Positions 11,387 to 24,184 of a stretch of 64,000 bases of DNA are shown piece by piece (position 1 is the first letter of the stretch; each line of letters starts with the position of its first letter). The stretch comes from a virus. The stretch covers positions 124,001-188,000 of IMG/VR virus record IMGVR_UViG_3300046660_000219, one strand, 5' to 3'. The position numbers and the translations under genes were made by a program. The notes beneath the pieces were generated by a model, which saw only the letters and a program-made list of their open reading frames with translations, did no database searches and was not told where the DNA came from.

Positions 11387-13036
11387 CTAGTCCGCCTCGT
11401 CCTCTGTGGCGTTAACTTTTGAGCGACGCTGTGGTTTAGCGGCACTCGTACCATTCTCGGCATTCTTGTACTGCGGTAGCAATGCACCGTTAGCACTTAC
11501 CTTTTTCAAGGCATCGCTGATACGGGCCGTCGGATCGGCCCTCTGACTCTTGAGCAACTTAGTCTCGGCGGCAAGTGCAGCTAGCTTGCTCTTTAGGTTG
11601 GCGGTGTTCAGTGCGTCCAGTTGTGAAACAGTAAGACGCCAGATGGTCTGGGCGTCTTCGTGGTTCACCTTCAAGGCGCGCTCAATCATCGCGACCTTGT
11701 CACCAGATTTGGCTTTGATAATCACGACCAGCTTGTCGAGGTTGGTCGCTGCCAGAACCATTAGGTTTAGGCGACGTGACTCAGCGATGTTGTCGCGGAC
11801 TAAAGCATCGATCAATCGCTGCTCAAGCGCGACGCGATAATGGTACCATCGCTCCAGCATATCTACAGGAGATGTAGCCAGGAAAGTAACTTTAGCCGTC
11901 TCCGGGTCATCCGGGTTCGGTTCACGCAACGTGGTCATTGCGCGGTAGGTCTCGCTAATCGTCAGCTTCTTGATAGCTTTATCGTGCGCCGCCTCGCTGC
12001 GTGTTTCAATCTCGATCATGATCACCCCTTCTGACGAAAGGTTGTCCACGCGATACACGCCGTCGATGGCCTCAAGATTAGCCTTCCACGTCTCATAGCC
12101 ACCCGCCGTCCCCAACGGCAGCGCGGTTACTGAAATGATAGAACCACCGTTGCGCAGCTCCTTGATTGTGTAAGGTGCTTTCCAGAAGACCTTACCCGCA
12201 CCCGTAGCGTGGTAGGCGTCCAAGTCCTCCTTAGCCACCTGTGGAAGAGCGCCCCACCGGTGCATCAGTTGCAGCTTAGCGGCGGCCTTCTTACCATTAC
12301 CACGTGTACGGAACAGCGTCTCGACACACTCGATTAGGCTTTCCAATCGATATGGCGGCATGTTGCACGACACACCGACCGCCGTACCCTGAGAGCCGTT
12401 GGCAAACAAGAATGGTAGATGTGACGGTAGATAGATCGGCTCCTTGTCTTTGCCGTCGTAGTTGGGGATGTACGGAATGACGCTGTCATCCATATACGGC
12501 TTGGGCACAAGGACTGTATCCGCTAGACGAGTCAGGCGGCATTCGGTGTAGCGCATGGCAGCGGCGCTATCTTCGTAGTCGCCCCAATTGCCTTGGCCAT
12601 CCACGAACGGTGAACAGCAGCCAGCCCCGTTGCTCATGCCTACCATTGCATCGTAGATCGACGAGTCACCGTGAGGGTGGAAGTTACCCATAACCTCACC
12701 GACGACCTTAGCCGCTTTAGTGTGCCCGCTATTGTAATGCAGACCCATGCGGTACAAGCCATAGACGTTGCGCCGGTGCACGGGCTTAAGCCCGTCGTTC
12801 AGACAACTGATAGCCCGCTCTTCCACGGTGTGCTTACCATACGCCAGCATGTTCTCTTCGGCCGTGTCGCCGAGTTTAACAGTAGCGAAAGCTTCGATGC
12901 GCTTCAGGTCATTGGCGGCGGCACGCTTGGTTTTGCGGATGACGCCACGTACCACATTGTCCGTATCACGGATTGGGCCAGTTCGCTTAACTGTAGGCTT
13001 CGTTGGCCTTACAGGTTTCTTTGGCGGTCTTGCCAT
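11387..13036 (-). CDS. Type IIA DNA topoisomerase, A subunit (GyrA/ParC/gp52-like)
   Basis: 549 residues; breaks and rejoins DNA. RAISCLNDGLKPVHRRNVY at about 74-92 is the family signature and AAAMRYTECRLT at 158-169 carries the active-site Tyr163. There is no C-terminal beta-pinwheel, so it resembles T4 gp52 or a decatenase rather than gyrase. Residues 1-20 are a Lys/Pro tail (PPKKPVRPTKPTVKR). ATG 13036 follows GGAAATAGTA. Partner of the B subunit encoded immediately upstream; together they would relieve replication stress on phage DNA. Confidence 0.93.
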   Translation of the reverse strand: MARPPKKPVRPTKPTVKRTGPIRDTDNVVRGVIRKTKRAAANDLKRIEAFATVKLGDTAEENMLAYGKHTVEERAISCLNDGLKPVHRRNVYGLYRMGLHYNSGHTKAAKVVGEVMGNFHPHGDSSIYDAMVGMSNGAGCCSPFVDGQGNWGDYEDSAAAMRYTECRLTRLADTVLVPKPYMDDSVIPYIPNYDGKDKEPIYLPSHLPFLFANGSQGTAVGVSCNMPPYRLESLIECVETLFRTRGNGKKAAAKLQLMHRWGALPQVAKEDLDAYHATGAGKVFWKAPYTIKELRNGGSIISVTALPLGTAGGYETWKANLEAIDGVYRVDNLSSEGVIMIEIETRSEAAHDKAIKKLTISETYRAMTTLREPNPDDPETAKVTFLATSPVDMLERWYHYRVALEQRLIDALVRDNIAESRRLNLMVLAATNLDKLVVIIKAKSGDKVAMIERALKVNHEDAQTIWRLTVSQLDALNTANLKSKLAALAAETKLLKSQRADPTARISDALKKVSANGALLPQYKNAENGTSAAKPQRRSKVNATEDEAD

Positions 13037-13127: not shown

Positions 13128-15095
13128 TTACGCGACGCCTAGCAAGCGCTTGCGCGGTGCTACATCGTTACCCATGACCTGAATGAGCCTGTCAGCCCCT
13201 TCTGGTGTGATCTGGATAAGCTTGCGCGTGTCTGGCTTGAACACCAGCGGACGCATGTCCGGCACGTTGATCTCACCCCAGCCCTTGACCCGTGTAACGG
13301 TAGGGTTCTTAGCGCCTAGAAGGTTGATGGCCTCCTGGCGTGTACCCGCGAATACCGTTTTCGCGCCGCTCTTGGCTTGGAAAAGCGCATCACTGACGAC
13401 GTAGACACGCCCCTCACGGATTAGATCTGGAACGATCTTCCACAACAGCACCAGCAGTAGATTAGCGATGTGCTTACCGTCCACGTCGGCGTCCACTAGC
13501 AGTACGACCTTACCCACCCGGCGCTTAGCTAGCGGGCCATTCTTGTTTTTGGGGTCGTAGCCAATAGACCGCAAGATCGCCTGCACCTCGTTGTTGAGCA
13601 GCGTGGTCTCTGGCTTACCTTTAAGGATGTTGGAGACCTTGCCGCGAAGAGGTAGAATCTGCTGAAACTGTACGTCGCTAGCTTGCTTGGCAGAACCGCC
13701 AGCCGAGTCGCCTTCGACAAGGAACAGCTCACACTCTTCTGGCTTGTTGCTGCGTGAGTTGCGTAGCTTGGACGGGAGCCCGTTCGTTCCGCGCTTGGTT
13801 CCTAGCGCCGAAGCGGCCTTGGCACTAAGTTTGTAATCGGCGTACATAGACGCCAGTTCGTTCGCCTTCTTGATGATGGCGCGCGCTAGACTCTTGTTCT
13901 TGTCGAAAAAGGTAGTGATCTCTTTAATCACCGAGTCATAGACCAGCTTTTCCGCTTCAGGGCTGACTAGTTTTTCCTTGGTCTGACTGGAAAACTTCGG
14001 CGATTTGATCTTCACGCTCACCAGCGACAACATCCCAGCGCGGAGGTCTTCCGGCCGGTAGTTCTTGGCGTAGTCGCCCTTGGTCGTGGCGTGTTTGCCG
14101 ATGGCGTCGGAAATCGCCTTCTCTATACCTTTTACGTGCGTGCCGCCGTCAACCGTACGAATACCGCTGACGTAGCTCATGCTGAGTTCTGACCCAGAGT
14201 CCGCCCACTGCAACGCGATGTCAGCACTGGCGGTATTGATGACGAACGGCTTACCAAGCGGTTCGCGATCTTGCAGGTTGTGCGCCAACCAGTCGGCTAG
14301 GCCCTTCTTGTGTTGGATTACCTTTTTGACCTTAAGCGGTGCTATGTCTACGTGGAAGGCCATTCGCGGGTTGATGTAGGCCAGCATCTCCAACCAATCG
14401 AGGGTTGGCTGCCAATCAACGTCACTGGGCTTCACGCCCTTGAAGATTTCCGGATCATAACGGTAAGTGACCTTGGTTCCGGTTTCGCCCTTGGGCACAC
14501 GGCCAACTACCTTCAGGCGCTTGGTCGTTACACCAGCCTTGAACTCGGCGTGATGTAGCTTACCATCGCGCTTGATGTCCAGCATCAAAAGGGTAGACAG
14601 CGCTGTAACAGCCGCCGCACCGATACCGTGGACACCACCCGATGTGTCATAACTAGAACCAGCTGTGGATTTAGCCCCGGCGTGAAGTTGCGTGAATGCG
14701 ATCTCCGCCGCCGACATCTTCGGGTTGCTCGGGTGCGGCGCTACGGGAACACCACGTGCGTTGTCCTCGACGATAACGGTACCGTCCGCCCTGACAGTGA
14801 ACACGAGCTTGTTGCCAAACCCCACGCCCGCTTCGTCCATGACATTAGCGATTAGCTCAGCGGCTAGATGGCGCACGGATGTAGCGTCGTTGCCACCAAT
14901 ATAAAGGGTAGGGTGTGCCCGAAGCTTTTCCCGATCGGTCTTGAGCCACACGATAGAGCTAGCATCATATGCCCTACTCTTCTTAGCGGTCGCGACCGCT
15001 GGCATATCCACTTGCTTGACCGGCTTGCGGGGTGCGGAAGTAGTTACCGTTTTGATTGGTTTACGCGGCGCAGCCTTGACGGCGACTTTAGCCAT
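13128..15095 (-). CDS. Type IIA DNA topoisomerase, B subunit (GyrB/ParE-like)
   Basis: 655 residues. N-terminal GHKL ATPase: ELIANVMDEAG (80-90), DNARGVP (111-117), GGVHGIGA (153-160). C-terminal Toprim metal site: EGDSAGGSAKQ near 463 and DADVDGKHI near 545. Residues 1-40 are a Lys/Pro-rich extension (APRKPIKTV, APRKPVKQV) absent from host GyrB/ParE. A promoter sits at 15123-15151, so the two subunits are probably co-expressed from here. Confidence 0.94.
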   Translation of the reverse strand: MAKVAVKAAPRKPIKTVTTSAPRKPVKQVDMPAVATAKKSRAYDASSIVWLKTDREKLRAHPTLYIGGNDATSVRHLAAELIANVMDEAGVGFGNKLVFTVRADGTVIVEDNARGVPVAPHPSNPKMSAAEIAFTQLHAGAKSTAGSSYDTSGGVHGIGAAAVTALSTLLMLDIKRDGKLHHAEFKAGVTTKRLKVVGRVPKGETGTKVTYRYDPEIFKGVKPSDVDWQPTLDWLEMLAYINPRMAFHVDIAPLKVKKVIQHKKGLADWLAHNLQDREPLGKPFVINTASADIALQWADSGSELSMSYVSGIRTVDGGTHVKGIEKAISDAIGKHATTKGDYAKNYRPEDLRAGMLSLVSVKIKSPKFSSQTKEKLVSPEAEKLVYDSVIKEITTFFDKNKSLARAIIKKANELASMYADYKLSAKAASALGTKRGTNGLPSKLRNSRSNKPEECELFLVEGDSAGGSAKQASDVQFQQILPLRGKVSNILKGKPETTLLNNEVQAILRSIGYDPKNKNGPLAKRRVGKVVLLVDADVDGKHIANLLLVLLWKIVPDLIREGRVYVVSDALFQAKSGAKTVFAGTRQEAINLLGAKNPTVTRVKGWGEINVPDMRPLVFKPDTRKLIQITPEGADRLIQVMGNDVAPRKRLLGVA

Positions 15096-15929: not shown

Positions 15930-16387
15930 CGGAAGTTTTCCTTAGTCACCGATCCGTCTGGCCAAAAAATGGTAATGCGTCGACCAAGTCCGCGAGCATA
16001 GCGAATAGTTGACCACGTCCCGCTACGCAGTACTTCACGACCACTCGGCGTCGCCAACAGACCTAGTACACAGTCATCCACGATCTTTCGGTTGCGATGC
16101 AGGTACGGGAGTGGATCATGCGTAATCGCTGCGCCTCGACAGAAGGCGCGCTTGCTGTCGTTATCCGGGATGTGCAGGGCCGTCAACCAATCGTACAGTT
16201 TCGCACCTTCATCCGCGAAAGCGTCTCCACCGACGCAGTCACCGTGATGGAGAACTAGCTCGACACCATGCACTTTGGGTAACTGTAGCTGGTGCGTGCG
16301 CAAGGTGCGCAACAATGCACCGCCCTGCATCGGAGTTGGTCCATCTTGCGATCCGGTGAAGCCATAGTGTCTGTAACTGGTCGTCAT
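15926..16387 (-). CDS. SLOG-superfamily (Rossmann-like) protein
   Basis: 153 residues from ATG 16387, which overlaps the previous stop (ATGA). YGFTGSQDG near the start, LHHGDCVGGD in the middle and AITHDPLPYLHRNRKIVDD then SGTWSTIRYARGLGR follow the SLOG/DprA-like nucleotide-binding fold (YspA-type), which binds nucleotides or their derivatives. Members act in ligand sensing or nucleotide processing. A second SLOG-like protein lies at 54334-54750. Confidence 0.65.
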   Translation of the reverse strand: MTTSYRHYGFTGSQDGPTPMQGGALLRTLRTHQLQLPKVHGVELVLHHGDCVGGDAFADEGAKLYDWLTALHIPDNDSKRAFCRGAAITHDPLPYLHRNRKIVDDCVLGLLATPSGREVLRSGTWSTIRYARGLGRRITIFWPDGSVTKENFR

Positions 16388-16623
16388 GGGTTTACCATGT
16401 CCATAGGGATACACAATGGTATCACACCATCCGGTGTATCTGCAAAGAGTCGACCATCAGGAGCCGCCACCACTTGTGAAACTACGACATAACCCATCGT
16501 CGTAGTGGGATCACCAACCACAAGCTCATGGGTGTCCGTTAGATAAGCCACCTCACCGTGATGAAGCGCTGATTTGGGCGGAGATGATCCACGCTTAACT
16601 AAGAAACGGAGATGATTAGCCAT
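16384..16623 (-). CDS. Small protein resembling the N-terminal module of phage tail-fibre/tropism proteins
   Basis: 79 residues. LVKRGSSPPKSALHHGEVAY followed by LTDTHELVVGD resembles the 'RGTTAxxPxLxxGELxxxTDTxxLxVGDGTT' module found at the N-terminus of phage fibres and major tropism determinants. Here it stands alone, without the receptor-binding remainder. May be a small virion protein; weak call. Confidence 0.5.
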   Translation of the reverse strand: MANHLRFLVKRGSSPPKSALHHGEVAYLTDTHELVVGDPTTTMGYVVVSQVVAAPDGRLFADTPDGVIPLCIPMDMVNP

Positions 16624-16637
16624 GTTAGGAACCTCTA

Positions 16638-16799
16638 TTAGTCTTTCTGTAATCGGCGCTCTAGCGCGCTGTAGTCAGTGCTGATCAGCACGTTACCGTT
16701 CTTACGTAAGAACGCTTCCTTGATCTTGCGGCCCGCTTCTGTACGAATCGGGATGTTCTGTATATGTGGCGTGGCCGGAGTTTCGCGTTTGGTGTTCAT
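16638..16799 (-). CDS. Mini-protein equal to the DNA polymerase I motif-A segment
   Basis: 53 residues. HIQNIPIRTEAGRKIKEAF (12-30) and VLISTDYSALERRL (37-50) match the family A polymerase palm segment 'LQNIPxRTExGRxIRxAF...SADYSQIELRI', including the motif A aspartate (Asp42) that binds catalytic metal. Everything else of a polymerase (fingers, motifs B and C, exonuclease) is missing. It is not an obvious dead relic: it has its own ATG 16799, AAAGGTAAC directly upstream, a stop, and normal spacing to both neighbours. It cannot polymerise alone. Options: a fossil exon, one piece of a split gene, or a domesticated peptide that interferes with host or phage polymerase. Confidence 0.75.
   Translation of the reverse strand: MNTKRETPATPHIQNIPIRTEAGRKIKEAFLRKNGNVLISTDYSALERRLQKD
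16697..16714. repeat. 18-bp perfect palindrome inside the polymerase-fragment gene
   Basis: CGTTCTTAC and its complement meet at a central ACGT. It overlaps an AANRGTA heptamer at 16694-16700. May be chance from the FLRKN codons. Confidence 0.6.
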
Positions 16800-16810
16800 G
16801 TTACCTTTAC

Positions 16811-17281
16811 CTAAGTCAAGAGGCCTTCGTGACGATCCTCTTCCACGATTACAGCAGCTACCAGCGCTTCTAGTTCAGGCGCGATGGCGGCTAACTCCGT
16901 CACTAGGTCGCAGGCTTGCCGATCTTCGGGTGTAGGGCCGGGGCGCACAATCACATTGACCACGTGATCGGTGAATACCATTACGATCTTATCCACGATA
17001 TCCATACGGGTCGTATAGTCCGCGTGAGTACGCGGTGCATCACTACCCGGTATCTTCTCGTGAATTACCATGTTTAGCCGAGTGCGCAAGTCCCGTACCT
17101 CTCGCGCCACTAGGTAGCATTCTCGCTCGCGCGCCGGATCTCTAGGTGAGGCTCTAAAGGCGTGTTGTTGCACTACCGTTATCAGGGAAGCTACCAAGAG
17201 CGGAGCTAAGTCAGAGCGCGGGCTTTTGGCCGGTTTCTCCCAAGGCTGTTTCGCTCTAGGTGTGTACGACGTGTTTCCCAT
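16811..17281 (-). CDS. Hypothetical protein, 156 residues
   Basis: Predicted mostly helical after a basic N-terminus. ATG 17281 follows AAAGGTAACTGAT. No family recognised. Confidence 0.7.
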   Translation of the reverse strand: MGNTSYTPRAKQPWEKPAKSPRSDLAPLLVASLITVVQQHAFRASPRDPARERECYLVAREVRDLRTRLNMVIHEKIPGSDAPRTHADYTTRMDIVDKIVMVFTDHVVNVIVRPGPTPEDRQACDLVTELAAIAPELEALVAAVIVEEDRHEGLLT

Positions 17282-23479: not shown

Positions 23480-24184
23480 CTATACCTTTTCTTCGTGTTC
23501 TAGCGCCTTCATTTGCAGGAAAGCTTTCGGCGGTACATGGTCGTATTTCGCAGCGTCTTCTTTGAGCTTGGTGTGCGCTGCCATTAACAGTCGTGTCGTA
23601 CGCAACCATTTCACGTCCGGAACAGTGCACGGTGGCCACATCTCGATCAAGTGCTGTCGAAATAGGTAGAACTCAGGAACAGGCCGCATTAGAGCACCGC
23701 GCATGTTGTTGCACGGTTGACAGGCCGCCATCAGGTTCTCCATGGCGTCCGTGCCGCCGTTGCAGCGTTCGACCAAATGCTCGATCGTGTATTGCGAATT
23801 GCCGATCGCCTTGACCATCAGTCCATGGCAATAGCAGCACTTACTGTTTTGGGCTTCGCTTAGAACCCGGCCAACCTGTTTACGCCCAAGAAGGATTGTG
23901 CGTGCATTGCGCGCGGCATCCGCTTCTAGAAGTGCGGCCACTACGGGCGCGTCTTCGAAAAACGGTAGCGGTTCAGTAGGATCGAACTTCTGTCGGTTCT
24001 TACACGTCTGCAATACGGCCATCACCTTTCGCAAGGCTGTATCGCGTCGATATGGCCGCTTGCTGCTACGGTAATTGGCGAAGGTACGTAGCGTCGAGTT
24101 GGATAACATGTCCAACTTACCATTTGTCTCAATGGTGATCAGAACGTGTGCAATCTCGTTCTCTGTCAGGTGTTGGATATTCAC
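23480..24184 (-). CDS. HNH endonuclease
   Basis: 234 residues. CCYCHG, then TIEHLVERCNGGTDAMENLM (the His-Asn core of HNH) and ACQPCNNMRG supply the two zinc CxxC pairs and catalytic His around residues 125-172. The N-terminal 110 residues are helical and may bind DNA. Could be a homing or recombination nuclease. Confidence 0.8.
   Translation of the reverse strand: MNIQHLTENEIAHVLITIETNGKLDMLSNSTLRTFANYRSSKRPYRRDTALRKVMAVLQTCKNRQKFDPTEPLPFFEDAPVVAALLEADAARNARTILLGRKQVGRVLSEAQNSKCCYCHGLMVKAIGNSQYTIEHLVERCNGGTDAMENLMAACQPCNNMRGALMRPVPEFYLFRQHLIEMWPPCTVPDVKWLRTTRLLMAAHTKLKEDAAKYDHVPPKAFLQMKALEHEEKV

Follow-up and report, generated by a model that had tools for sequence, protein, structure and literature searches.

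The locus considered here raises the question of why a large phage would carry an intact gene of 53 codons that corresponds to only a small segment of DNA polymerase I (Pol I). The window, meaning the whole stretch of DNA that was analysed, is 64,000 nucleotides long and corresponds to positions 124001-188000 of a virus record of 205,908 bases. The gene starts with ATG, has zero internal stops and encodes the protein MNTKRETPATPHIQNIPIRTEAGRKIKEAFLRKNGNVLISTDYSALERRLQKD. The gene, its parts and its neighbours are as follows.

16638..16799, minus strand: 53-aa mini-PolA gene (stand-alone Pol I block), including the stop codon (ORF, Pfam, Klenow alignment, codon usage)
16710..16787, minus strand: R-x8-QNIPIRTEAGRKIKEAF block, residues 5-30, equivalent to E. 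coli Pol I 668-693 (gapless Klenow alignment)
16650..16691, minus strand: motif A VLISTDYSALERRL, residues 37-50, with Asp42 (D705) and Glu47 (E710) (Pfam, alignments)
16800..16808, minus strand: ribosome-binding site AAAGGTAAC, immediately 5' of the ATG (sequence)
16811..17281, minus strand: 156-aa upstream neighbour, without a Pfam match (ORF list, Pfam)
16384..16623, minus strand: 79-aa downstream neighbour, weak Mtd_N-like match (6e-4, below the cut-off; ORF list, Pfam)

The 53-aa protein has the conserved domain PF00476 (DNA_pol_A; E-value: 1.9e-10, 40.7 bits, above the cut-off of 34.3), with residues 8-50 matching profile positions 123-166 of 381. In a comparison with solved Pol I chains (E-value: 2.8e-8), residues 5-50 align without gaps to the Klenow block ending VSADYSQIELRI. 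Arg5, Asp42 and Glu47 correspond to R668, D705 and E710 of the E. coli enzyme (Klenow numbering). The E-values rule out a chance ORF at 16638-16799. A previous, sequence-only reading had recognised part of the Pol I palm in an unbroken ORF whose product alone is no enzyme, and the Pfam match and clean frame bear this out. The same reading held that the gene contains motif A only. Motif A is indeed present, but the block starts earlier, at Arg668-QNIP (E. coli numbering), such that the protein covers the QNIP block and motif A, including Asp42 and Glu47, and stops three residues past motif A. The complete core of the family, with motifs A, B and C, is absent: compared to bacterial Pol I, only ~45 of the 381 profile positions remain and the fingers, motif B, motif C, thumb and exonuclease are missing. 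No motif C was seen in the neighbouring ORFs. By itself, this protein is not a polymerase and cannot polymerise.

The gene is probably expressed, judging from its sequence context. The intact ribosome site and normal spacing noted previously were confirmed: AAAGGTAAC lies 5' of the ATG, ~11 nt separate the gene from the upstream ORF (which ends at 16811) and 14 nt separate it from the downstream ATG (16623). Similar AAGGTAA-type sites are also found 5' of several neighbouring genes. The codon adaptation of the gene is 0.72 (phage reference genes: 0.65-0.84), a value reached by only 0.15% of random synonymous versions.

The phage also encodes a polymerase of its own. A PF00476 search of the whole 205.9-kb record (E-value of 10 or lower) gave only two matches, the 53-codon gene and a complete PolA of ~1032 aa located ~1.3 kb before the window start. 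This PolA is ~28-30% related to the polymerases of large phages of Erwinia, Dickeya, Xanthomonas and Pseudomonas. It carries its own QNIP block and motif A (NLQNIPQRGKLAKLVKRQF...KQDFNANEVRG), motif B (KGVIFGTIYG) and an HD-containing motif C. Because all of these motifs are present, PolA is not short of a piece that the 53-mer could supply, nor is the 53-mer a recent copy of it, and the sequence of the PolA block rules out the gene as a duplicate. Elsewhere in the window, adjacent genes encode type II topoisomerase subunits (GyrA/ParC-like and GyrB/ParE-like; 11387-13036 and 13128-15095, minus strand), and a 234-aa protein (23480-24184, minus strand) has an HNH-like CxxC...H...CxxC pattern, as judged by eye. 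Window synteny with annotated phages did not extend beyond one 85-base match, and a close relative of the window gene was not found in the viral contigs and phages searched. Sub-threshold GcrA-like matches outside the window (G000, C1:97517-97621 and C1:19169-19369) may hint at an alphaproteobacterial host.

The sequences nearest to the window protein are bacterial polA genes, mainly alphaproteobacterial (49-63% over ~40-50 residues). Among phages, a stand-alone homologue of 78-83 aa was identified by tblastn in 26 records of phiCbK-like Caulobacter phages. This gene is labelled in GenBank as a Pol I DNA polymerase, palm domain (phiCbK D865_gp197 and Karma gp233, "putative Pol I DNA polymerase, palm domain"); neither "palm" nor "gp197" occurs in the text of the phiCbK genome paper. 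It lies in an operon, 3' of a GcrA-like gene, and a full polymerase is encoded elsewhere in the genome, the main polymerase of phiCbK being T7-like (PMC3556154). The window protein is most similar to the corresponding PHROG, phrog_12116 (81 positions; E-value: 3.2e-9 on 6-51 of 81), and matches the full-polymerase family phrog_17 more weakly (E-value: 4.7e-5). Like the Caulobacter proteins, it is the product of a short stand-alone gene, starts ~12-13 residues before QNIP, has the common P..QNIPIRTEAG block and the motif A Asp and Glu, and coexists with a full PolA encoded elsewhere in the genome. Unlike them, it is 53 rather than 78-83 aa in length (~42% identity), has no C-terminal tail carrying an HDEF that resembles motif C, and is not encoded directly 3' of a GcrA-like gene, as its neighbours have no GcrA match. 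Because the window protein shares more identity with bacterial PolA (up to ~60%) than with the Caulobacter protein, separate captures and a single inherited family are equally likely.

The tail of the Caulobacter version is exemplified by an 81-aa gene (L007:8004-8249) with the C-terminal end VHDEFSYTVRK. With a motif-C HMM, the VHDEFxYT tail scored 7.0 in BL57 (above all 2000 shuffles, maximum 5.9), 4.3 in Karma (above the 99% level of 2.8) and 0.5 in Rogue. These scores lend modest support to the tail being motif C. As the tail resembles motif C, the Caulobacter version may have kept the palm and lost the fingers. The AlphaFold models of the window protein (pLDDT 72, pTM 0.38) and the Caulobacter protein (pLDDT 71, pTM 0.33) are of low confidence and show no palm fold, and a fold search gave zero matches; structure therefore weighs neither for nor against mimicry of host Pol I.

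Stand-alone blocks of this kind are found in further phages. IMG/VR was scanned in full with the pattern QNIPxRTExG, giving 48 loci. Eight of these are short stand-alone genes, which belong to five lineages.

Caulobacter group: 78-83 aa
L057: 59 aa, on a 142-kb contig
L109: 137 aa, on a 183-kb contig that also encodes its own PolA
L027: 45 aa, limited to the QNIP block, with a start codon that overlaps the preceding stop, on a 17-kb fragment
L031/L036: 164 aa, identical over 3.2 kb, on a 145-kb contig with its own complete polA

L031 (2462-2956) and L036 are the same virus. Their ORF encodes a motif-B block, a CxxC segment and then a QNIP block, so that motif B precedes QNIP, the reverse of the order in the enzyme. 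When L031 was used as a tblastn query, a 55-aa gene containing motif B only was found in 20 records of Saclayvirus, a group of Acinetobacter phages (L420:6001-6168, NC_048080.1 93394-93561, MGYDIHRKAAAIMFGIPESMVTDKQRKVGK..., and 19 more). This gene is kept across the genus, in which a separate divergent PolA is also present. The Saclayvirus gene (e.g. Aci05 gp036) resembles the window gene in being a stand-alone, bacterial-type Pol I core block in a phage with its own divergent PolA, but it covers the motif B region (DIHR..VT.KQR.VGK) and has neither the QNIP block nor motif A. Most of the unrelated phages with a mini gene likewise have a complete PolA, as is the case in phiCbK, Karma, G003 and G006. 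Nothing obvious is common to the mini gene neighbourhoods.

Two further candidates were considered. L006 was rejected as a relative because it is a chance match inside an unrelated 819-aa protein. In an ATG-anchored scan, the QNIP matches were mostly due to chance; a 77-aa ORF (L178:8580-8813) that starts MRRTGPNLQNIPI, has a zinc-ribbon-like tail and lies ~3.4 kb from a complete polA is a doubtful case, either a further QNIP micro-gene or chance.

The window gene can thus be classified as one of a set of scattered phage micro-genes, each of which encodes one or two blocks of the Pol I active-site core. There is good support for this being a genuine gene type that recurs. The Arg668-QNIP block is common to all relatives that contain the QNIP-motif A region; both this common part and the recurrence in other phages had escaped the sequence-only reading. 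A control scan for motif C listed at most one short stand-alone ORF among ~115 polymerase matches, compared to five lineages among ~45 for QNIP (Fisher p=0.007 by lineage, among the matches listed), a comparison that is a rough guide because the control used a different pattern and exclusions made by eye.

The mini genes of the Caulobacter phages and Saclayviruses are under purifying selection. The Caulobacter gene has dN/dS values of ~0.2-0.3 at diverged pairs (Karma versus BL64: 0.164/0.537). Values for its neighbours are higher, mostly 0.43-0.62 for gcrA and mostly 0.57-0.88 for the downstream gene. The Saclayvirus motif-B genes have values of mostly 0.1-0.46. All of these figures are approximate because they derive from pairwise NG86 estimates on short genes.

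The residues that are kept and lost in the mini proteins follow a pattern. The mini block is of the bacterial type (RTExGR), unlike the blocks of the phages' own PolA proteins in the three phages compared (G000, QNIPQRGKLAK; G003, QNIPRSDKDK; G006, QNIPKPDSDK). QNIP and RTE owe part of their conservation to the method by which relatives were found, except in the window and Caulobacter genes. The motif A Asp and Glu, which no pattern demanded, are kept in every stand-alone version that contains motif A. Asn675, located two residues before the Gln of QNIP and included in none of the search patterns, is replaced by His in the window protein. Across six mini lineages this position reads H, P, A, A, A and N, a loss in five of six. 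Of the complete PolAs, 106 of 111 from phages retain Asn675 (Fisher p=9e-6 for the loss in the minis), as do 79 of 80 bacterial ones. In Klenow and Taq structures, residues of this block, Asn675 among them, touch the minor groove of the primer-template.

Because selection maintains comparable micro-genes in large phages of unrelated lineages, the window gene probably encodes a working small protein and is not a sequencing accident. The explanation favoured over debris and over a replisome accessory, although held at a little under an even chance, is that this real small phage gene, derived from a bacterial-type Pol I block, encodes a domesticated peptide that would act in trans, probably by mimicking host Pol I or competing with it. 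Three features favour this interpretation: the peptide resembles a host-type Pol I and not the phage polymerase, the mini genes coexist with unrelated main polymerases, and a DNA-contact residue is lost while active-site residues are kept. The peptide would be made and would imitate the structure of host Pol I in trans. It might then compete for contacts inside Pol I in a dominant-negative manner or, alternatively, occupy a partner that recognises the same Pol I surface. Of the three options raised by the sequence-only reading (decoy, fossil and piece of a split polymerase), a decoy in the sense of such a mimic appears to fit best.

A fossil origin is also quite possible for the window copy. 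The gene would then be a remnant, either of a bacterial polA that had been captured or of a phage PolA that had been displaced; illegitimate recombination, or co-conversion near a homing element, would have left it behind, and it would be accidentally translated and still awaiting loss. End points differ between the relatives, as they would in debris, polymerases are swapped among phages (PMC11348598) and several phage polA genes are interrupted exactly between the QNIP block and motif A. However, this origin is weakened by the adapted codon usage of the window gene, by the kept catalytic Asp and Glu, by the purifying selection on the stand-alone Caulobacter and Saclayvirus versions, and by the scarcity of stand-alone ORFs in the motif-C control. 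None of the marks of a pseudogene (a broken frame, decayed codon usage or decayed active-site residues) is seen in the window gene.

In L123, L128, L286, L290 and L062 (perhaps also L060), the phage polA frame ends just after QNIP...AFVSER and before motif A. In G007, G008, G010 and G011, the remainder of the interrupted polA resumes a few hundred bases on. A single insertion site, occupied by an intron, an intein or a homing element, probably explains the interruption.

It is unlikely that the block serves the phage's own replisome as an accessory that binds DNA ends or helps to load the phage polymerase. Such a role would make use of the DNA-contact residues in the block, and Arg668 is kept in most mini lineages. 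However, the minor-groove contact Asn675 is lost in most of them, and the main polymerases are very different, T7-like in phiCbK (PMC3556154) and a divergent PolA in the window phage.

Two explanations are very improbable. Split or interrupted phage polA genes exist, some of them broken at the same place, but a split polymerase with its remaining pieces encoded elsewhere is contradicted by the intact full-length PolA and the lack of any further fragment in the 205.9-kb record (which may be incomplete), and by the complete PolA that accompanies the mini gene in other phages. A decoy that acts as DNA or RNA, for example one imitating a homing-endonuclease target in polA, would make the protein irrelevant; homing elements appear to sit at the same place in phage polA and an HNH gene adjoins the Saclayvirus motif-B gene in Aci05, but the amino acids stay while synonymous codons vary freely between lineages, and dN/dS is below 1.

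The mimic or competitor interpretation can be extended, more doubtfully, to the other micro-genes. Phages may repeatedly have turned single active-site blocks of host Pol I (QNIP alone or together with motif A or C, motif B, or QNIP and motif B in swapped order) into small proteins that act in trans and disturb or divert Pol I or the partners of Pol I; these proteins would then constitute an unrecognised class of polymerase mimics. ICP1 Odn, which combines a RepA-like domain with a nuclease (PMC8263062), is similar in idea only, as a borrowed replication-protein segment turned on another replication system; the window protein has no nuclease domain and no homology to Odn.

In the open-access literature, nothing on phage Pol I fragments or split family A polymerases that explains the mini genes was found, nor any paper in which Pol I blocks encoded as separate genes are described as recurring among phages. 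The single family phrog_12116 is listed in databases as a "DNA polymerase". Public records label such genes "DNA polymerase" or "hypothetical protein" although most of the enzyme is absent, and the mini genes inflate polymerase counts in phage annotation. The pairs of phiCbK with Caulobacter and Saclayvirus with Acinetobacter make the mimic idea directly testable. If functional, these proteins would be natural peptide mimics, and perhaps inhibitors, of DNA polymerase I that evolved in several phage lineages.
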